The translations under genes and the position numbers were made by a program. 33,165 bases of DNA from an uncultured Alphaproteobacteria bacterium. GTDB lineage: Bacteria > Pseudomonadota > Alphaproteobacteria > RF32 > CAG-239. How positions within the stretch are numbered: position 1 is the first letter of the stretch; every line of letters starts with the position of its first letter. This document shows positions 4,883 through 33,165 of the stretch, piece after piece. The stretch covers positions 1-33,165 of the forward strand of contig CASFTO010000048.1 in the NCBI GenBank assembly GCA_949297665.1. The letters run 5' to 3'. The notes beneath the pieces are model-generated. The model did not search any database and had not been told where the DNA came from. It saw only the letters and a program-made list of their open reading frames with translations.

Positions 4883-6547
4883 ATGGCTGTGTCTAATGCC
4901 GTTGCTACTCTTTTAGAGGAATATAAACGCTTTAACTCCGTGCAGATGAAAGATTTGTTTGCTAACGATGATAAGCGTGCTGAAAAATATACACTCAATT
5001 TTGGCGAGCTGACTTTTGATTATTCTAAAAACCGCTTTGATGATAAAGTCCTAAAGGCTTTGTTTGAACTGGCCGAAGAACATCATTTGAAAGAACGTAT
5101 TGAAGATATGTTTTCGGGCAAAAAAATTAATGTGACCGAAAATCGTGCTGTTTTGCATACTGCATTGCGTAATTTCTCCGGTAAGCCGGTTTTTGTGGAC
5201 GGTAAAGACGTTATGCCCGAAATCCTTAGAGTTCAGGCTAAAATGAAGGAATTTTCCGACGCCGTTCGTAACGGTACTTTCAAAGGCGCTACCGGCAAAA
5301 AATTAAAAAATATTGTTAATATCGGTATCGGCGGTTCGGATTTGGGCCCGTATATGGTAACTTGCGCTCTTAAAAAATATTGGGCGAAAGATATTCAATG
5401 CTACTTTATTTCCAATATCGACGGCACAGCTTGCGCAGAAGTTTTAAATAACGTTAATCCGGAAGAAACTCTCTTTATTGTTGCGTCCAAAACCTTTACC
5501 ACTATTGAAACTTTAACTAATGCGCGTACTTGTCGCGAGTGGTTGGTTAAAGCTCTTGGCGAAGAGGCGGTTAAACACCACTTTGTGGCTCTTTCCACCA
5601 ATGCGAAAGCTGTTGCGGAATTCGGTATTGATGTGAACAATATGTTTGAGTTCTGGGATTTTGTCGGCGGACGTTATTCCCTCTGGTCTGCTATCGGTTT
5701 GTCTATCGCTTTGGCGGTTGGGTTTGATAACTTTATGGAACTCTTAAAAGGTGCTGAAGCTATGGATAATCATTTCCGTAGCGCTCCTTTGGATAAAAAT
5801 ATTCCGGTCATTATGGCTTTGCTCGGCATTTGGTATAACGATTATTACAATATTCATCGCTATGGCGTTATTCCTTATGACCAATATCTCAAGTTCTTGC
5901 CTTCTTATCTGCAACAGCTTGATATGGAAAGTAATGGTAAATCCGTTCGTTTGGATAATAAAAAAATTACTGACTATGCAACAGGTCCGGCTCTCTTTGG
6001 CGGTGCGGGGACGGATGTTCAACACTCTTTCTTCCAACTTTTACACCAAGGAACACAACCGGTGCCGGTAGACTTTATTATTCCGGCTATCTCTCATAAC
6101 GAAAACGGTAAGCATCACGAAATCCTTATCGCCAATGTTTTGGCTCAGGCAGAGGCTTTGATGAAAGGTAAAACCGTTGAAGAAGCCGCTGAAGAATTGC
6201 GTGCGGCCGGTAAAGACGAGGCTACGATTGAAAAATTGAAGCTTAACAAGAGCTTTGACGGTAACCGTCCTTCTAATATGTTCTTGTTGAAGCAAATTAC
6301 GCCTTATGCGCTCGGTATGTTGATTGCTATGTATGAGCACAAAGTCTTTACGCAAGGGGTTATTTGGGAAATTGATTCCTTTGACCAATGGGGCGTTGAA
6401 CTGGGTAAGCAGTTGGCACTTAAAATCTTGCCGGAATTGGAAGGTTCCGCTTTGGCTCAACATGATAGCTCTACCAGTGCTTTGATTGCTAAAGTGGTGG
6501 CTTTGCGTGCGGAATGCAAGAAAGAGCAAGCCGAAAAAGTCGCTTAG
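4883..6547 (+). CDS. pgi: Glucose-6-phosphate isomerase
   Basis: 554 residues, close to the 549 of E. coli Pgi. It interconverts glucose 6-phosphate and fructose 6-phosphate in the cytosol. Family landmarks include IGIGGSDLGP, ASKTFTT (phosphate-binding loop), FVGGRYSLWSAIGL near residue 259, QLLHQGTQ near 388, and GMLIAMYEHKVFTQG followed by DQWGVELGK near 476-505. The start is fixed by AGGAG seven bases before the ATG; the longer frame from 4814 begins upstream of the -35. The usual GEPGTNGQH motif carrying a catalytic Glu reads GGAGTDVQH here. The gene is monocistronic, with a consensus promoter and a structured 3' region. Confidence 0.97.
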   Translation: MAVSNAVATLLEEYKRFNSVQMKDLFANDDKRAEKYTLNFGELTFDYSKNRFDDKVLKALFELAEEHHLKERIEDMFSGKKINVTENRAVLHTALRNFSGKPVFVDGKDVMPEILRVQAKMKEFSDAVRNGTFKGATGKKLKNIVNIGIGGSDLGPYMVTCALKKYWAKDIQCYFISNIDGTACAEVLNNVNPEETLFIVASKTFTTIETLTNARTCREWLVKALGEEAVKHHFVALSTNAKAVAEFGIDVNNMFEFWDFVGGRYSLWSAIGLSIALAVGFDNFMELLKGAEAMDNHFRSAPLDKNIPVIMALLGIWYNDYYNIHRYGVIPYDQYLKFLPSYLQQLDMESNGKSVRLDNKKITDYATGPALFGGAGTDVQHSFFQLLHQGTQPVPVDFIIPAISHNENGKHHEILIANVLAQAEALMKGKTVEEAAEELRAAGKDEATIEKLKLNKSFDGNRPSNMFLLKQITPYALGMLIAMYEHKVFTQGVIWEIDSFDQWGVELGKQLALKILPELEGSALAQHDSSTSALIAKVVALRAECKKEQAEKVA

Positions 6548-6692
6548 GGGGGCGTGCTAAAACAGCGTCATGTCGCAGATTTTGAAACTTATGTACTCAT
6601 TTTGTACACCGCGCTTCAAAATCTGCTTCCAGCCCGCTATTTTATCCTACCCATTGCAAAAACAGGAGCGGAAGCATAACGCTCCTGTTTTT
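6548..6692 (+). repeat. Structured 3' repeat, copy 1 (after pgi), with terminator
   Basis: Starts at the pgi stop codon. An outer stem (TAAAACAGCG with CGCTATTTTA, one mismatch) encloses a perfect 12-bp stem (GCAGATTTTGAA / TTCAAAATCTGC), inside which TGTAC / GTACA can pair. A fixed linker (TTTATCC, ACCCATTGCAAAAA) then leads to a terminator hairpin (ACAGGAGCG / CGCTCCTGT, T-run) at 6658-6692. About 110 bases recur nearly verbatim after the PBP1A gene at 32939, where one outer base pair has changed on both sides. Confidence 0.85.
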
Positions 6693-6710: not shown

Positions 6711-6795
6711 AACTTGGGGTGCTTGCACCCACTTACTTTAGTCCTTTATGGGGCGGGGTTTTGAGCGCAACGCTCGGGCTTCTTACATTTTTGCC
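6711..6795 (+). repeat. TT-loop hairpin module, copy 1
   Basis: GGGTGC-TT-GCACCC (6717-6730), then the fixed block ACTTTAGTCCTTTATGGGGC and a GAGCG-caa-CGCTC hairpin with GGGCTTCTTA. The module recurs at 6937, 7066, 7129 and 33098. Confidence 0.75.
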
Positions 6796-6820: not shown

Positions 6821-6930
6821 GCGGGTAGGTGCTTTGTGGTTTGTACACCGCGTTGTCTGATTTAACAATAGCACCACCCTTTATCCCACCCATTGCAAAA
6901 ACAGGAGCGGAAAATAACGCTCCTGTTTTT
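6821..6930 (+). repeat. Structured repeat, divergent copy with terminator-like hairpin
   Basis: Shares TTGTACACCGCG and the linker TTTATCCCACCCATTGCAAA with the pgi and PBP1A copies but lacks the 12-bp inner stem. A different outer stem (GGTGCT...TTGT with ACAA...AGCACC) takes its place. The ACAGGAGCG / CGCTCCTGT hairpin and T-run follow at 6901-6930. Confidence 0.7.
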
Positions 6931-6936
6931 CTGTTT

Positions 6937-7010
6937 GGCAACTTGTTGCCGTTGACTTAGTTTTTTATGTAGCGGAGTTTCGGGCGCAACGCACGGGCTT
7001 CTTATTTTGT
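6937..7010 (+). repeat. TT-loop hairpin module, copy 2
   Basis: GGCAAC-TT-GTTGCC (6937-6950), then GACTTAGTTTTTTATG, GCGGAGTTT and GGGCTTCTTA. The arm sequence differs from copy 1 but is fully complementary. Confidence 0.75.
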
Positions 7011-7080: not shown

Positions 7081-7170
7081 CTTACTTTAGTTCTTTATGG
7101 GGCGAGTATGTTTTTATACGCTCGGGGTGTGCACTTGTTGCCGTTGACTTAGTTCTTTATGGGGCGGGGT
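7066..7170 (+). repeat. TT-loop hairpin modules, copies 3 and 4
   Basis: Copy 3 has GTGCAC-TT-GTGCAC (7066-7079) and CTTTAGTTCTTTATGGGGCG. Copy 4 has GTGCAC-TT-GTTGCC (7129-7142) and GACTTAGTTCTTTATGGGGC. Copy 4 combines the left arm of one type with the right arm of another, so only part of its stem can pair. Confidence 0.7.
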
Positions 7171-7226
7171 TGGCACTATCTCTTTGCTGAGCTTTTTTTA
7201 TCTTACTTTGGCAAAGGGTAGGTGGT

Positions 7227-7541
7227 GGCGGTGTGTGATTAAAAGTCGCAAAGTTCTCCTTTGTTGCTGAGCTTTTTTATCTTGCTTGGCAAAGGGGAGG
7301 TGATGGCGGTGTGTGGTTAAAAGTCGCAATGTTCTCCTTTGTTGCCGTGCTTTTTTATTTTCCTTGGCAAAGGGGGAGGTTGTGGCGGTGTGTGATTAAA
7401 AGTCGCAAAGTTCTCCTTTGTTGCCGTGCTTTTTTTATTTTCCTTGGCAACGGGGGAGGTTGTGGCGGTGTGTGGTTAAAAGTCGCAATGTTCTCCTTTG
7501 TTGCTGAGTTTTTTCTTTTCCTATCCAAAGGGATGAGATGG
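7227..7541 (+). repeat. Four 78-80-bp tandem units
   Basis: Units begin at 7227, 7305, 7384 and 7464 with GGCGGTGTGTG(A/G)TTAAAAG. Units 1 and 3 read GATTAAAAGTCGCAAAG and units 2 and 4 read GGTTAAAAGTCGCAATG, so the array looks like a doubled two-unit block. A partial unit precedes it from about 7171. The stretch 6548-7864 contains no gene I can support; frames crossing the array are repeat artefacts. Confidence 0.85.
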
Positions 7542-7593
7542 GGAGGTTTGGTGTTTAAATTCCGATTGTCCTATTGGGAATATGAATCAGCAG

Positions 7594-7833: not shown

Positions 7834-7864
7834 TTTCTTATGTTAGGTTATGGGGAGAGCGCAA

Positions 7865-9340
7865 ATGTTTGTAGATATTGAAAATCCTAAATCTCCATTG
7901 AAAGTTGCCAATATTTTGACGGCGTATGATAAAGGCGTGGTTGTTAAAGGTGTGCGTCAACCCAAAGAAAAACTGACACCGGAAGTGTGTTTGGATATTC
8001 TTAAATCTACAAACCATCCGCGTTGTATTCAAAATATGCTCCAACTTATTGCTAAATTGCCGGATGAAGAGCAAGTGCAATTCAAAGAAGTTGTACTCTC
8101 TTGCTTTGATAATCGGGAACAGCCAAAGCCTGTTTTAGATGTGGGGCAAGAATTAGCGGAAAAATCCGGCTATGGGATAGAATTTGCGCAAGTTCAAAAA
8201 ATTAAAGAGGGATTGTTTTTGTCTTCTGATGCGGTGGCTCTGAAATGTTTGATGTGCAAAGAAAGTGAGTTTACAAATGAAGACTTTAGCGCGTATGATA
8301 AAGTGATTTTTTTAAGTGATAAAAAAATTCAATTTAAATCGCAATTAAAATTATATGTGAAGTTTCCGAAAAATATGGAATTTCCAAACTCGCTAGATGT
8401 TTCTTTTTATGATGAAAACGGATGGGGCGGGTTGAATTTGTTAGGAGTGCAAAGCATTCGCTTTAAAGAGGGCGCTAAGGTTAATTTGAAAGGTGCAAAA
8501 AATTTACCGGATAATCTTGATGTTTCTCAATGTCTTGAAGTGAATTTGAGTGAATGTGATTTGAAGGGACTGTCTCATCTTTGCTTTAAGGATGGCGCTG
8601 AGGTTGATTTGAAAGATGCAAAAAATTTACCGGCTGACTTAGATTTTTCTCGGTGCGTGATGGTGGATTTATTAGGATGTAATCTGAGAAAGCAGCTTAA
8701 TCTTCGCTTTAAGGATGGCGCTAAGGTTGATTTGGAGCGAGCTAAAAAGTTACCTCCTAATCTTGATTTTTCTTGTTGTGCTGATATTAGCTTGAGAAGC
8801 TCGGATTTGAGCGAACAATCCAATCTTCGTTTTATGGAGGGCGCATCAGTTGATTTGAGTGGTGTGAAAAATTTACCGGCAAACCTAGATTTTTCTCAAT
8901 GTAATGAGGTATGGTTGTGCGATTGTGATTTGAGTGGACAGCCTAATCCTCGCTTTAAGAATGGTGCAAAGGTTGTTATGCAAAGTGCTTATAATTTCTC
9001 CGAAAAAATTGATTTTTCTCTCTGCTCTGAAGTGGTTTTAAACTGTTGTGATTTAAAAGACGTGTCGTATCTTTGCTTTAAAGATGGTGCTATTGTGGAT
9101 TTGACGTTTGCCTATAATTTGCCGGAAAATCTTGATGTTTCTATGTGCGCTAAAGTGGATTTGGATGAGTGTGATTTCAGCACGGTTAAAGAGTTGGTGT
9201 TCAAAAATCGCGAACAGATGGAAAATAGTCATGCCAAACTGCCGGATGACTGGAAAGGAAAATTAGTCTTTACCGATGAGGTGCCGCAAAATGATTTGAA
9301 TTTGGTGATGACGGCGGCGAAAACAAAAGGCGGACGCTAG
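7865..9340 (+). CDS. Family B protein with 41-residue repeats
   Basis: 491 residues, no signal peptide. Residues 1-110 form the family B N-terminal domain (MFVDIENPKSPLK, NREQPKPVL, EKSGYGIEF). From about residue 195 six repeats of 41 residues follow, with consensus LRFKDGAKVDL-x2-AKNLP-x-NLDFSxC-x-EVxL-x2-CDL. A regular hydrophobic beta pattern with Cys at fixed positions suggests a solenoid. The C-terminus (LPDDWKGKLVFTDE... DLNLVM... AAKTKGGR) is shared with the 9411 product. I start at 7865 because GGGGAG is well spaced there and the paralogue aligns; the ATG at 7850 lies upstream of that site. Function unknown; likely a cytosolic interaction protein. Confidence 0.8.
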   Translation: MFVDIENPKSPLKVANILTAYDKGVVVKGVRQPKEKLTPEVCLDILKSTNHPRCIQNMLQLIAKLPDEEQVQFKEVVLSCFDNREQPKPVLDVGQELAEKSGYGIEFAQVQKIKEGLFLSSDAVALKCLMCKESEFTNEDFSAYDKVIFLSDKKIQFKSQLKLYVKFPKNMEFPNSLDVSFYDENGWGGLNLLGVQSIRFKEGAKVNLKGAKNLPDNLDVSQCLEVNLSECDLKGLSHLCFKDGAEVDLKDAKNLPADLDFSRCVMVDLLGCNLRKQLNLRFKDGAKVDLERAKKLPPNLDFSCCADISLRSSDLSEQSNLRFMEGASVDLSGVKNLPANLDFSQCNEVWLCDCDLSGQPNPRFKNGAKVVMQSAYNFSEKIDFSLCSEVVLNCCDLKDVSYLCFKDGAIVDLTFAYNLPENLDVSMCAKVDLDECDFSTVKELVFKNREQMENSHAKLPDDWKGKLVFTDEVPQNDLNLVMTAAKTKGGR

Positions 9341-9410: not shown

Positions 9411-10994
9411 ATGATTGTCGGAATTCCTGATTTTAAGTCGGCGTTGGCCATTGAAAATATCTTAACCCCCTATAAAAAAGGGCGGTTGGCCCCTGATAAA
9501 AAAACGCGGTTGCCTAAAGAAAAAATAACGCCTGATGTTTGTATGGAAATTCTTCAATCCACCAACTACGCCCGAAACATTAAAGATATGCTCCAATGCA
9601 TTGCCGAACTTCCGGTTTCTGAGCAAGGGTATTTCAAAGAGGTGGTGCTTACGACCTTTTCTAATCGCGAGCAGCCGGAGGCTATTCTTCAATTAGGCCG
9701 AGAATTGGCGGAAAAATCCGGCTATACCGAAAGATTGATTAAAGCGCAAGCACTCAGTGAGGGAAGATATTATCACTCGGCTCCACAGCCGTGTAAGTCT
9801 TATATTTCTTTACAAGGTGATGTTCAAGAGCGGAATTTTTCGGACTATGATGCTTTAATCTGCCTTAATAAATTGAAACTGAACGCTCAAGGGGTGACGT
9901 ATTTTCCACCTGAAATTGATGCTTCGGATACGAAGTTGCTTATTTTTGATAATTGTGATTTGTCCGGCGTGCAGAGCTTCAAAATGAAAGAGGGGGTGCA
10001 TGCTTCGTTTAAAGAGGCTTCTCATCTGCCGCATGATTTGGATTTGTCTTTATGTGCAAACGTCAACTTATATGGGGTTGATGTCGGCTCTTTGGATGGG
10101 CTGAAGTTTCGGGACGGGGCTACGGTTAGTTTGGATGATGCTTTGAACGTTCCGCATGATTTGGATGTTTCACCGTGTTCTTCCATTACGCTTGATTGGC
10201 AGGAATTAGACCGCTTTGATGAACTCAAGTTTCGCGACGGGGCAAAAGTATATTTGCGTCAATGCGGTGATGTGCCGGCAGATTTGGATTTCTCTATGTG
10301 TTCGGAAGTGGATTTTGAAGAAGATAATTTGGGCAACGTTCAAAGACTTTGTTTCAAAGACGGGGCAAAGGTCTTGTTTAATCATGTGATATCTTTTCCG
10401 AAAGATATGGATGTGGCTAATTGCGATATCTTGTATTTTAAGGCTGCCGATTTGAAAGACCTCCCGCAACTTGATTTGAAAGACGGGGTGGAGCTATATC
10501 TGAATAACGCCAGAACGCTCTCTCCTTTATGGGATTATTCTCGCACAAAGGTGTTTAGCGCCGCTTCTTGTGATTTTTGGGGCTTTGATGAGCTTAAGTT
10601 TCGTAAAGATGCAAAAGTTGATTTGTCTTCAGCTTATCATTTGCCGAAAGTTTTGGATGTTTCGGAATGTGCCGAGGTGGAGCTGGGCGGATGCGATTTG
10701 AGCCGATACGATGAGATGACTTTTGGGGGAAAGGTTACGTTTCACAAAACGTCTAATACCGTTACCAAAATGCCGAAAAAATTAGATTTGTCGCATTGCA
10801 TCAGCGTTTGGGTGGAACATAACAGCGCCGATTTTAGCGCAACCAAGCAGATTGTTTTTGCCAGTCGTGAACATCAGAAACGAAACAATATTCCACTTCC
10901 CGATGACTGGAAAGGGGAGGTTATCTTTGCAGATGAACAGCGTGAGGCGGATTTGAATTTAGCGATGGTCGCAAAAACTAAAGGTAGCAGATAG
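9411..10994 (+). CDS. Family B protein with 41-residue repeats (paralogue)
   Basis: 527 residues. The N-terminal domain (IVGIPDFKSALAIENILTPY, NREQPEAIL, AEKSGYTE) and C-terminal cap (LPDDWKGEVIFADE... DLNLAMVAKTKGSR) match the 7865 product. Between them are about seven to eight diverged repeats of about 41 residues (LKFRDGAKVYL, VPADLDFSMCSEV). Its repeats are less alike than those of the 7865 protein, so it has diverged longer or escaped recent homogenisation. AAGGAG lies eight bases before the ATG. No transmembrane segment or signal is evident. Function unknown. Confidence 0.8.
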   Translation: MIVGIPDFKSALAIENILTPYKKGRLAPDKKTRLPKEKITPDVCMEILQSTNYARNIKDMLQCIAELPVSEQGYFKEVVLTTFSNREQPEAILQLGRELAEKSGYTERLIKAQALSEGRYYHSAPQPCKSYISLQGDVQERNFSDYDALICLNKLKLNAQGVTYFPPEIDASDTKLLIFDNCDLSGVQSFKMKEGVHASFKEASHLPHDLDLSLCANVNLYGVDVGSLDGLKFRDGATVSLDDALNVPHDLDVSPCSSITLDWQELDRFDELKFRDGAKVYLRQCGDVPADLDFSMCSEVDFEEDNLGNVQRLCFKDGAKVLFNHVISFPKDMDVANCDILYFKAADLKDLPQLDLKDGVELYLNNARTLSPLWDYSRTKVFSAASCDFWGFDELKFRKDAKVDLSSAYHLPKVLDVSECAEVELGGCDLSRYDEMTFGGKVTFHKTSNTVTKMPKKLDLSHCISVWVEHNSADFSATKQIVFASREHQKRNNIPLPDDWKGEVIFADEQREADLNLAMVAKTKGSR

Positions 10995-25433: not shown

Positions 25434-25961
25434 CCACCACTTTAGTGGTGGATGAATAAAAAGTCGGCGATATAATAAAGATATGCAATTTGTAGAGAGT
25501 TCACATAGCGTATACAGTTTAAGTTACCATATAGTGTGGGTAACCAAATATCGCCGACGTATCCTAAATCCCGGCGTAGTTGATTATTTGAAGAGTATTT
25601 TTCCGAAGCTACTAAGAAGTATCCCAGGGGTAGTTATTGAAGAGATTGGCTTTGATAAAGACCATATTCATTTTGTAATGATAATTCCCCCCAAATATAG
25701 CATATCAGATGTGGTAGGAAAATTAAAAAGCCAATCAGCTTCAATGATGAGAGAGCGTTATAATTGGTTATCAAGGGTGTATTTTAAGGAAAATGTGGTT
25801 TGGTCAACGGGATACTTCGTTAGTAGCGTTGGTGCGAATGAAGAAGTAATTAAAAATTATGTAAAGTATCAAGGACAAAGGGATTTAGGTCAACTCCATT
25901 TGGAGTTGTAAAGAAAGGCACCTTAATGGTGCCTTTCCAAGAACCCCGGGTTTACCCGGGG
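25434..25961 (+). mobile_element. IS200/IS605-family element, tnpA only
   Basis: Bounded by two hairpins of the same geometry: left CCACCAC-TTTA-GTGGTGG (25434-25451) and right CCCCGGG-TTTA-CCCGGGG (25944-25961), 7-bp stems with TTTA loops. These are the expected subterminal recognition hairpins of single-strand transposition. Exact cleavage sites lie outside them and cannot be fixed without an empty site. A third hairpin (GAAAGGCACC / GGTGCCTTTC, 25913-25937) follows the transposase. No tnpB is present and the transposase is full length, so the element may be active. Confidence 0.9.
25483..25911 (+). CDS. tnpA: IS200/IS605 family transposase TnpA
   Basis: 142 residues, standard length for this family of Y1 HUH single-strand transposases. 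The HUH motif is His61-Ile-His63 (DKDHIHFVM) and the nucleophile is probably Tyr126 (IKNYVKYQ). SLSYHIVWVTKYRR is the typical N-terminus. It cuts and rejoins single-stranded ends at hairpins. There is no clear ribosome site, as is common in this family. The last codons coincide with an 8-bp palindrome (CAACTCCA / TGGAGTTG). Confidence 0.95.
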   Translation: MQFVESSHSVYSLSYHIVWVTKYRRRILNPGVVDYLKSIFPKLLRSIPGVVIEEIGFDKDHIHFVMIIPPKYSISDVVGKLKSQSASMMRERYNWLSRVYFKENVVWSTGYFVSSVGANEEVIKNYVKYQGQRDLGQLHLEL

Positions 25962-30523: not shown

Positions 30524-32929
30524 ATGGCTAAGTTTTTGGTTAATCTTATTAGTTTTGGTTTGTTGATGGCGGTGTTGCTTTTTGCCGGCATCTTTATTTG
30601 GTTCAAAACTTCCGGCTTTGATATTCCGGATTATTCGAATCTGGCTACTTATGAACCGCCGGTTACCACTCGCCTTTATGCCGGTGATGGACAGGTTATG
30701 ATGGAATATGCCGCTGAAAAACGTATCTTTGTGCCCGAAGATAAAATTCCTGAACGCGTTAAACAGGCCTTTATTGCCGCTGAAGATAAACATTTTTATT
30801 CACACCCCGGTATTGATTTAATCGGTATCGTTCGCGCCGTCTTTACGAATGTGGTGAATTATGCCAAAGGTAAACGCTTGGTCGGCGCTTCCACCATTAC
30901 ACAACAAGTGGCTAAAAACTTCCTTCTTTCTTCCGAACGTTCGCTTATTCGTAAAATTAAAGAGGCTATCCTTGCTTATCGTATCAGTAAGGCCTTTTCT
31001 AAAGAACATGTGTTGGAACTTTATTTAAACGAAATTTATCTCGGGAATCGTGCTTATGGTGTGGCGGCCGCAGCGCTTAACTATTTTAATAAATCACTTT
31101 CCGAGTTAACGCTTGAAGAAACGGCTTATTTGGCGGCACTTCCAAAGGGACCGAACAACTATAATCCGAAAAAACGTTATGACGCTGCTATTGCTCGTCG
31201 TAACTGGGTTATCGGGCGTATGCTTGAAGATGGTTATGTGACCGAAGAAGAAGCTAAAGAGGCGCAGGCTAAACCGCTGGTTACCGTTGATAAAAAATTC
31301 GGCTATCTTAAAGACAGCGAATATTTTAGCGATGAAGTCAGACGCGTGATTTCTAAAAGCTTGGGCGAAGATGCCGTGTTTGAAGGTGGTTTGATGGTGC
31401 GTACCACTCTGGATCCAAAGTTACAGGAACTCGCCACAAAAGTCTTTCGCAAAGGTTTGATGAATTATGACCGCCGTCATGGCTTTAGAGGGGCTACAGC
31501 TCGTATTGACTTGAATGGTAATTATCAGGAAGAACTTAAAAAAGTTGAACTTCCCAAAGGGGCGGAGAAGTCTTGGAAAAAGGCGGTGGTGTTGACGGTT
31601 GCTCCTCAGCAGGCTAAAGTTGAAAATGTCGATGGAAAGCAAGGTATTATTACACTTAAAAGTTTGGCTTGGGCTCGTAAAACTCTTAAAAATCAACAAG
31701 TCAGCGCTGCTCCGACAAAAGTTACCGATGTACTTAAAGCCGGCGATGTGATTTATGTGGAAGAAGTTAAAGATGGCGTGTTTGAACTTCGTCAGGTGCC
31801 TAATGTTGAAGGCGCTATGGTGGTGCTTGATCCACATAATGGTAAAGTGTTGGCGATGGTGGGCGGTTTTTCTTTTAATAAATCGCAATTTAACCGCGCG
31901 ACACAGGCTTATCGTCAAACAGGTTCTACCTTTAAACCTATTGTTTATGCAGCGGCGCTTGAGTTAGGTTATTCTCCGACAGACCTTATTCTTGATGCTC
32001 CGTTTGTGCTTGATCAGGGGCCGGGGTTGCCTCTTTGGAAGCCTTCTAACTATTCGGCAGGGTTCTCCGGCTTGACAACTCTTCGTCAGGGAATTGAAAA
32101 ATCCAAAAACCTTATGACCGTGCGTTTGGCACAAGATGTCGGTATGGATAAAGTGGCCGCTATGGCGAAACGTCTTGGGGTTGATGATAATTTGCCGCAA
32201 CTTCTCTCTATGTCTTTGGGGGCGGATGATACTCGCTTGGTGGATATGGTAACCGCTTATGCCGTCTTTGTGAACGGAGGTAAAAAAGTTACACCGTATT
32301 TGATTGAGCAAATTCAAGACCGCTATGGCAAGAGTTTGTATAAAAATAACGATAACCATTGTATCGGCTGTAAAGTGGCGCATTTTAATCCTGATGATCC
32401 GGTGCCGGAAATTACTGATGACAGAGAGCGGGTTTTAGATGAATTAACCGCTTATCAGATGGTGTCTATTTTGCAAGGTGTGGTACAACGTGGTACGGGG
32501 GCTCGTCTTTCTCAACTCGGTAAAACGTTGGCCGGAAAAACCGGTACGACTAATGATACCAAAGATGCATGGTTTATCGGCTTTTCTCCGGATTTGGTGG
32601 CCGGCGTGTATATCGGCTTTGATGATCCGCGCACACTCGGTCGGGTGGAAACCGGTGCCGCCGCCGCTCTGCCTATCTTTTATGACTTTATGAAAGACGC
32701 ACTCAAGGATAAGCCGAATTTGGAATTTCGTGTGCCGAAAGGTATTCGTTTTGTGCGCATTAATCCCAAAACCGGTAAGCCGGCGACACTTGACGATAAA
32801 GTGGTGATTACCGAAGCACTCAAACCTGATTTTGACTACAATAATACGCAACGGGTTATCGGGGACGGTGGCAAGTCCATGCTCGAAGATAAGAGTGAAG
32901 AAGAGTTTGGGCTCGGCTCCGAATACTAA
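30524..32929 (+). CDS. mrcA: Penicillin-binding protein 1A, bifunctional
   Basis: 801 residues. A single N-terminal membrane helix (about 8-28) anchors a periplasmic enzyme that polymerises glycan strands and crosslinks stem peptides. The GT51 domain (about 60-235) contains the catalytic Glu87 motif EDKHFYSHPG, GASTITQQVAKN and ELYLNEIYLGN. An OB-like insert lies at about 325-420. The transpeptidase domain has Ser468 (STFK), SKN at about 527 and Lys672 (KTGTT). The start at 30524 has AGGGG properly spaced; the frame's GTG at 30494 does not. In many alphaproteobacteria this gene sits beside the amidase gene, but here they are 15 kb apart. The stop is followed by the same repeat as pgi. Confidence 0.96.
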   Translation: MAKFLVNLISFGLLMAVLLFAGIFIWFKTSGFDIPDYSNLATYEPPVTTRLYAGDGQVMMEYAAEKRIFVPEDKIPERVKQAFIAAEDKHFYSHPGIDLIGIVRAVFTNVVNYAKGKRLVGASTITQQVAKNFLLSSERSLIRKIKEAILAYRISKAFSKEHVLELYLNEIYLGNRAYGVAAAALNYFNKSLSELTLEETAYLAALPKGPNNYNPKKRYDAAIARRNWVIGRMLEDGYVTEEEAKEAQAKPLVTVDKKFGYLKDSEYFSDEVRRVISKSLGEDAVFEGGLMVRTTLDPKLQELATKVFRKGLMNYDRRHGFRGATARIDLNGNYQEELKKVELPKGAEKSWKKAVVLTVAPQQAKVENVDGKQGIITLKSLAWARKTLKNQQVSAAPTKVTDVLKAGDVIYVEEVKDGVFELRQVPNVEGAMVVLDPHNGKVLAMVGGFSFNKSQFNRATQAYRQTGSTFKPIVYAAALELGYSPTDLILDAPFVLDQGPGLPLWKPSNYSAGFSGLTTLRQGIEKSKNLMTVRLAQDVGMDKVAAMAKRLGVDDNLPQLLSMSLGADDTRLVDMVTAYAVFVNGGKKVTPYLIEQIQDRYGKSLYKNNDNHCIGCKVAHFNPDDPVPEITDDRERVLDELTAYQMVSILQGVVQRGTGARLSQLGKTLAGKTGTTNDTKDAWFIGFSPDLVAGVYIGFDDPRTLGRVETGAAAALPIFYDFMKDALKDKPNLEFRVPKGIRFVRINPKTGKPATLDDKVVITEALKPDFDYNNTQRVIGDGGKSMLEDKSEEEFGLGSEY

Positions 32930-32935
32930 TGGGGG

Positions 32936-33165
32936 ATGTGGGGCGTGCTAAAACAGTGTCATGTCGCAGATTTTGAAACTTATGTACTCATTTTGTACAC
33001 CGCGCTTCAAAATCTGCTTCCAGCACACTATTTTATCCCACCCGTTGCAAAAATAGGAAACTTGAGATAAGTTTCCTATTTTTTTGTTTTAAATAGGGTG
33101 CACTTGTGCACGTGGACTTAGTCCTTTATGGAGCGAAGTTTGGGGTATTACGCGCGTGCTTTTTA
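32936..33165 (+). repeat. Structured 3' repeat, copy 2 (after PBP1A), with terminator
   Basis: About 110 bases nearly identical to 6548-6657. The inner 12-bp stem and the nested TGTAC/GTACA are unchanged; the outer arms are now TAAAACAGTGT / ACACTATTTTA. The terminator stem (33051-33081, AAATAGGAAACTT / AAGTTTCCTATTT) differs from the pgi one on both arms yet pairs fully. It is followed by GTGCAC-TT-GTGCAC (33098-33111), GACTTAGTCCTTTATGGAGC and further repeat sequence to the window end. Confidence 0.85.

Follow-up and report, generated by a model that had tools for sequence, protein, structure and literature searches.

What is the foldable sequence that recurs behind the stop codons of two genes in this contig? 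We analysed a 33,165-nt stretch from the genome of an uncultured alphaproteobacterium (the window). The original prediction, made from its letters alone, was that the compensatory changes between the copies reveal selection on a fold, either that of a 3′-UTR RNA or that of a DNA hairpin spread by a transposase.

Two complete hairpins lie behind pgi and mrcA

The predicted repeat behind pgi and the PBP1A gene (mrcA) is real. The pgi ORF ends at 6547 and copy 1, a complete hairpin, occupies 6548..6652 directly 3′ of the stop codon; the mrcA ORF ends at 32929 and copy 2, also complete, runs over 32940..33044, starting 10 nt past the stop. The parts of the element and the terminators located below are on the plus strand. 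The repeated stretches (6548-6660 and 32940-33058) share 95% identity over 119 nt. The core of the element occurred twice in the window and not at all in 100 shuffles, and none of 200 shuffles folded as well as copy 1 or copy 2 (z -5.3 and -4.2). R1, a covariance model of the inner hairpin, matched both copies (6576-6625 and 32967-33016, E 1.8e-15 each) and found at least 5 full copies in the window genome; copy counts from R1 are lower bounds throughout, as limited candidates per genome were scored.

In copy 1, the 5′ strand of the outer stem P1 (6550..6562) pairs imperfectly with the 3′ strand at 6640..6652 (TTTTATCCTACCC). Inside it, the 5′ strand of P2 (AGCG, 6564..6567) pairs with CGCT at 6635-6638, and the 5′ strand of the inner stem P3 (6575..6588), which covaries fully across the family, pairs with 6613..6626. 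These arms enclose the conserved tip (6589..6612), made of TTA, P4 TGTAC (6592-6596), a loop, P4′ GTACA (6604-6608) and CCGC. As had been claimed, the inner inverted repeat GCAGATTTTGAA/TTCAAAATCTGC is identical in the two copies, and the outer stem reads AGCG/CGCT in copy 1 and AGTG/CACT in copy 2. The mrcA copy of a relative, G006, carries the intermediate AGTG/CGCT, so that the C-G pair of P2 in copy 1 is a T-A pair in copy 2 and a T-G wobble in G006.

Two details of the original prediction had to be corrected. The third copy near 6821, taken for a diverged full copy, is by sequence comparison the right half (6843..6891, GTACACCGCG to TTTATCCCACCC) of a second subfamily, full copies of which lie elsewhere in the window genome (G000:C29, C2, C32); the same truncated form also stands 3′ of mrcA in G009. 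Nor does the terminator necessarily belong to the element: the intrinsic terminator of pgi (6658..6692, AAAAACAGGAGCG..CGCTCCTGTTTTT) is carried by G008 and G009 without it. By its sequence, a terminator also follows copy 2 (33049..33083, AAAAATAGGAAACTT..AAGTTTCCTATTTTTT), and sequence and fold place a second terminator hairpin 3′ of the right-half copy (6896..6932).

The window holds other repeats as well. A second intergenic family (ACTTAGTYCTTTATGGGGCG..GTTT, with a small GCGCAACGC hairpin) occurs at 6738-6785, 6957-7004, 7133-7171 and 33102-33165; it follows the pgi terminator as well as that of mrcA, and is also present in relatives. Four tandem repeats of 78-80 nt (GTTCTCCTTTGTTGCYGWGCTT) lie behind the pgi 3′ region at 7194-7552. 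They are followed by two adjacent genes for repeat proteins (7850-9340 and 9411-10994) with ~41-residue repeats and 123-nt periodic DNA; relatives of these proteins are found near several element copies in the genus.

A nearly invariant tip is carried by covarying stems

Members of the family measure ~100-115 bp, and the hairpins of the window ~105 bp. From the outside in they consist of P1, P2, a short pair step, an internal loop, P3, an asymmetric loop, P4 and the tip loop. P1 is often AAAAACTCG../..CGAGTTTTT or GGGGGCTTG../..CAAGCCC, and the pair step after P2, read by eye, is UAC/GUA, AAC/GUU or UG/CA. The inner parts are a UU/UUC loop, a P3 of 10-13 bp, the loop UUA/CNNC, P4 UGUAC/GUACA and a tip loop of variable length, and the conserved asymmetric loop and tip hairpin together read CTTA-UGUAC-loop-GUACA-CCGCG. 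The tip, CTTATGTAC-loop-GTACACCGCG, is nearly invariant and is conserved between phyla together with the internal loops, and most variants of P4 are compensatory (TTTAC/GTAAA, TGTAT/ATACA, TGTGC/GCACA). In the matches to the tip pattern, the sequence of the flanking stem differs each time and is usually complementary; in P3, all Watson-Crick pair types occur at nearly every position.

For 39 diverse sequences, a set from which low-pairing ones were excluded, the covariation score was 0.695, compared with 0.153 ± 0.015 after shuffling, and none of 500 shuffles reached it. Standard pairs accounted for 91% of the whole structure and 87.6% of P3 alone. When 119 stems were taken without selection for pairing, 79% of positions were Watson-Crick versus 34% in re-paired controls. 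When hairpins were scanned for with the tip sequence left free, 127 of the 143 two-level hairpins had the same tip, a measure of its dominance and not of its discovery, because the scanned loci had been fetched on account of the tip. Covariation across other copies, which the original prediction had made decisive, is thus far above that of shuffles in the window's order. These results strongly support selection on, or mechanistic maintenance of, a fold.

The element occupies the 3′ end of genes

The other decisive point, placement relative to genes and strand, proved non-random in the order. With ORFs called mechanically and 38 copies inside called ORFs (nearly all short) left out, 112 of 122 scorable copies stood behind a co-oriented gene and 10 otherwise. 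The tip was at most 60 nt from the stop codon in 83 of these 112, which means that the element begins at or just past the stop (~0-15 nt), and orientation was sense in 65 of 72 tandem contexts. Judged from the protein sequences, the upstream genes included rpoA (8), rplA (6), rpsA (5), rpsD (4), nusG (4), rplJ and mrcA, frequencies that are biased because the loci fetched were the best-scoring ones. Some stems extend into the coding end of rplA. Behind rpoA, the element directly follows the stop codon in 13 species with 11 different P3 stems, in which 168 of 169 pairs are formed (167 Watson-Crick and 1 G-U, with 1 mismatch); in other relatives the rpoA slot is filled by a plain intrinsic terminator. 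Recurrence behind rpoA, rplA, rpsA, rpsD and nusG in several species could reflect vertical retention of a functional 3′ element.

Outside the window's genus, a run of at least four T follows the outer stem in 93 of 110 copies and an A-run lies to its left in 85 of 110; by sequence, the outer stem there usually resembles an intrinsic terminator, that is, a hairpin plus T-run behind a gene. Within the genus, the T-run is present in 31 of 50 copies and a separate terminator follows the element. In three species (L076, L079, L092) the element sits between rplJ and rplL within the operon, where its outer stem does not end in a T-run and an intercistronic role is possible. Elusimicrobiota copies also lie close behind genes, with no strand preference in tandem contexts (11:11), and the Moraxella copies show no strand preference either.

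Copies are gained, lost and exchanged

Close relatives differ at the same slots. The window genome (G000) and G006 carry the element at pgi, where G008 and G009 have the same terminator alone; at mrcA, three genomes (G000, G006 and G008) have a full copy and G009 has a half copy, with none in more distant species; at rpoA the element is present in some species and absent from their relatives. One slot (L006, L037) has the same flanks in G000 and G008 but a different inner module in each. Among pairs of P3 arms, 13.9% within genomes versus 0.67% between genomes were more than 85% alike, one Elusimicrobiota genome places near-identical inner modules in two different outer stems behind many genes, and hybrid stems occur among the copies. 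Because modules are shared and exchanged within genomes, part of the apparent compensation between loci is whole-module exchange, which qualifies the original reading of compensatory change. Palindromes that correct themselves may be a further reason why stems are near-perfect and wobble is scarce.

With regard to a TA target duplication like that of Correia elements, the TA of the stop codon lies at the left edge of the element, and about half of the rpoA copies have a TA at the right edge. Many intact copies are followed by right halves repeated in tandem (79-90-nt units; L224, L120, L109, L067, L113); slippage, a break at the palindrome tip and repeated insertion are candidate origins. One copy of G014 (L032, ~1501-1640) has a hairpin-rich insertion of ~100 nt in its apical loop.

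The conserved loops fold better on the opposite strand

Conserved positions that stay unpaired are rich in pyrimidines on the strand of the gene and in purines on the opposite strand, where these loops could pair as tandem G-A and G-U. With RNA parameters, 88 of 101 copies folded better on the antisense strand, with DNA parameters 94 of 100, and among Elusimicrobiota copies 43 of 44. Beside P4, a G-U to G-C exchange exists only on the antisense strand. In P3, G-U pairs on the sense strand outnumber A-C mismatches (46 vs 31), which by itself favours the gene's strand and speaks against the antisense one. On balance, we regard the bottom strand as the more likely bearer of the functional fold.

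The family is found in at least two phyla

A scan of 84,980 genomes with the tip pattern found matches in many gut and rumen Alphaproteobacteria MAGs, and further ones in Moraxella, Endomicrobia, Solimonas, one Peptococcaceae MAG and one betaproteobacterium. R1 matched at least 83 of 100 genomes of the window's order, with up to at least 36 copies per 1.8-Mb genome, and at least 12 of 150 Elusimicrobiota genomes, again with up to at least 36 copies. One Moraxella held at least 44 copies, and hardly any other genome of its family was matched; among the candidates scored, none of 397 other sampled Pseudomonadota genomes was. Phage records and viral contigs gave no match to the element, and a phage origin was rejected on these records.

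Rfam returned no match over the element at gathering score in the window and 19 loci from several lineages, and only chance matches at relaxed thresholds (Termite-leu and miRNA hits, far below gathering). At locus L109 (27-141), upstream of tsf in a relative, RF01815 (rpsB sRNA) was matched at 48 bits, the gathering score being 40. Literature searches on the tip sequence and on REP-like, Correia-like and Elusimicrobia repeats found no description of the hairpin family in the papers covered. It is apparently a wide family of at least two phyla that has no name.

No mobilising enzyme tracks the copies

The Y1 transposase domain (PF01797) was absent from seven genomes with 17-28 copies, and its presence elsewhere did not match the element: G087 has 7 Y1 matches and 3 copies, and G003 has 2 Y1 matches and 0 copies. 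A Y1/RAYT transposase as carrier is thus largely refuted by its absence from copy-rich genomes. The window does contain an IS200/IS605-type TnpA gene (25483-25911) with its own hairpin ends, CCACCACTTTAGTGGTGG on the left and AAGGCACCTTAATGGTGCCTT on the right; the IS200 ends in the window genome are unrelated to the hairpin element. Reverse transcriptases did not track copy number, and the lack of RVT_1 in most copy-rich genomes speaks against a retron, a group II intron or another RT-borne RNA. No ORF was found in the apical loop of any copy, and the search for an autonomous ORF-bearing version ended in tandem right-half copies, which account for the large gaps. Nor was a recurrent mobile gene found near copies. 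The lack of a mobilising enzyme and of a clear target-site duplication counts against reading the family as a mobile element. For Correia-type elements, too, the mobilising mechanism had not been determined as of 2009 (PMC2649163).

Interpretation and alternatives

The two options of the original prediction did not fare equally. A dispersed DNA repeat accounts for the data better than a purely cis-acting 3′-UTR RNA, because close relatives differ in its presence at the same slot, inner modules are common to copies within genomes and the antisense strand forms the conserved loops better; the transposase that was to spread it was not found. We favour, with a rough probability of 0.5, a non-autonomous, MITE-like family of Correia/ERIC-like hairpins that often double as the gene's terminator. 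The tip and internal loops would be recognised by a copying factor in folded single-stranded DNA of the bottom strand, antisense RNA being a less likely form of recognition. The fold would be kept as the substrate of dispersal, copies would survive where a hairpin is harmless or useful, as in the terminator slot, and the transcribed hairpin would then end or protect the upstream mRNA. What we see is perhaps a dispersed element that was copied and then domesticated. A more specific version is unlikely in our estimation: an enzyme would recognise the mobile hairpin at its tip and not at its ends, bind the folded bottom-strand GUAC tip with its purine-rich loops and copy it into the loops of terminator hairpins behind genes, leaving the stems free, and this trans-acting dispersal would be common to Alphaproteobacteria, Elusimicrobiota and Moraxella.

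The family could instead be a cis-acting 3′-UTR RNA whose sense hairpin stops transcription, shields the 3′ end of the mRNA or influences termination by the ribosome, with a host protein bound to the tip and dispersal secondary. The sense orientation at stop codons, the 11 different and fully paired P3 stems behind rpoA, the A/T tracts at the outer stem and the element kept between rplJ and rplL in three species all agree with such a role, and REPs no more than 15 nt from a stop codon reportedly make ribosomes stall and reduce translation (PMC12306157). We nevertheless hold it to be possible and somewhat unlikely, given the better antisense fold of the conserved loops, the gain and loss at slots that hold plain terminators in relatives, and the missing strand preference in Moraxella and Elusimicrobiota. 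The strand asymmetry and the wobble/Watson-Crick exchange beside P4 would be expected of an antisense ncRNA, transcribed from the far side towards the gene, folded with purine-rich loops and acting in trans or on the neighbouring mRNA, and the outer stem looks terminator-like in both directions. Yet visual inspection past the outer stem showed no conserved flank resembling a promoter, and genomes with tens of copies of different stems, together with the tandem right-half arrays, make this RNA improbable.

Mutation might also suffice: long quasi-palindromes would restore their own pairing through template switching, ordinary gene conversion and tandem slippage would spread them, and perfect complementarity would require no selection. 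This would explain why intermediates are almost missing (as in the rpoA P3 stems), why modules are exchanged and stems hybrid, why right halves form arrays and why stems run into the coding end of rplA. It leaves unexplained the conservation of tip and internal loops from one phylum to another, the fixed unpaired mismatches, and the fixed position and strand, and we find it doubtful as the main cause. Movement by a Y1 transposase, as in REP/RAYT or IS200-like systems, is suggested by hairpin repeats behind stop codons and by the TnpA gene of the window; the copy-rich genomes without a Y1 domain, the mismatch in G087 and G003, the unrelated IS200 ends and the lack of a GTAG head leave it hardly credible.

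For the favoured reading of a dispersed hairpin, a near-fixed tip on stems that covary freely, in a family of at least two phyla, reveals where the constraint lies, and the tip hairpin of the bottom strand offers a concrete bait for finding the copying factor. If the sense hairpin is also a terminator, essential genes, among them rpoA, rpsA and rplA, would have had their 3′ ends taken over by mobile hairpins. The family is in addition an unlisted structured family of interest for Rfam and for terminator annotation.

Comparison with known systems

Integron attC sites were considered because they, too, follow stop codons. They carry R and L boxes at the hairpin foot; by description, the conserved part of attC is thus at the foot, whereas that of the hairpin family is at the tip. 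REP/BIME sequences are likewise palindromes close behind stop codons, and 83 of 112 copies start within ~15 nt of the upstream stop, as do the REPs of one subclass. However, REPs measure 14-40 nt, have a GTAG/GTGG head and are associated with RAYTs, whereas the ~105-nt element has no GT(A/G)G head at the foot of its palindrome and PF01797 is absent from its copy-rich genomes. Membership among REPs therefore fails on head, size and transposase.

Rickettsia palindromic elements and the CIR of Caulobacter and Brucella are dispersed palindromic repeats of Alphaproteobacteria (PMC2229807). Compared by description and not residue by residue, the former also occur inside genes and the latter consist of two arms and a linker. 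ERIC/IRU are stem-loops of ~100-130 bp in transcribed intergenic regions, non-autonomous and able to affect mRNA stability (PMC2229807). The family resembles them and other enterobacterial MITEs in this size range, in its stable stem-loop and in its non-autonomy; the sequence differs, and we found no report of free stem covariation around a fixed tip in ERIC/IRU.

A close likeness is to the CREE/NEMIS of Neisseria, whose size and layout have been described (PMC2649163), and to the CREE-like elements of Moraxella sp. S5R_Sa_41. Common to all are a length of ~104-108 bp, a long imperfect hairpin, dispersal, non-autonomy and a conserved core with a GTAC..GTAC tip, and the dispersed, ORF-less, ~105-bp multi-copy hairpin agrees in size with CREE (104-108 or 153-157 bp). 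CREE end in terminal repeats TATAGTG(G), whereas the gut alphaproteobacterial and Elusimicrobiota copies have highly variable outer stems without TATAGTG ends and sit behind stop codons; the copies of the window and its order start with GGGGGC.. or AAAAACTC.. instead. We also take the tip loops of the family to differ from the Neisseria Correia consensus. The Moraxella copies are inverted-repeat elements of ~107 bp, TATAGTCGATTAAAAT..GACTATA, with the tip of this family inside; only they have the ends TATAGTC...GACTATA, and an 82% match to them lies on a plasmid of Conchiformibius (Neisseriaceae). In size and core layout they match the short CREE class of Neisseria. We do not file the family under CREE, since the defining ends are lacking in the order; through the union of this tip with Correia-type ends in Moraxella, the gut family is linked in kind to the Correia-type elements.
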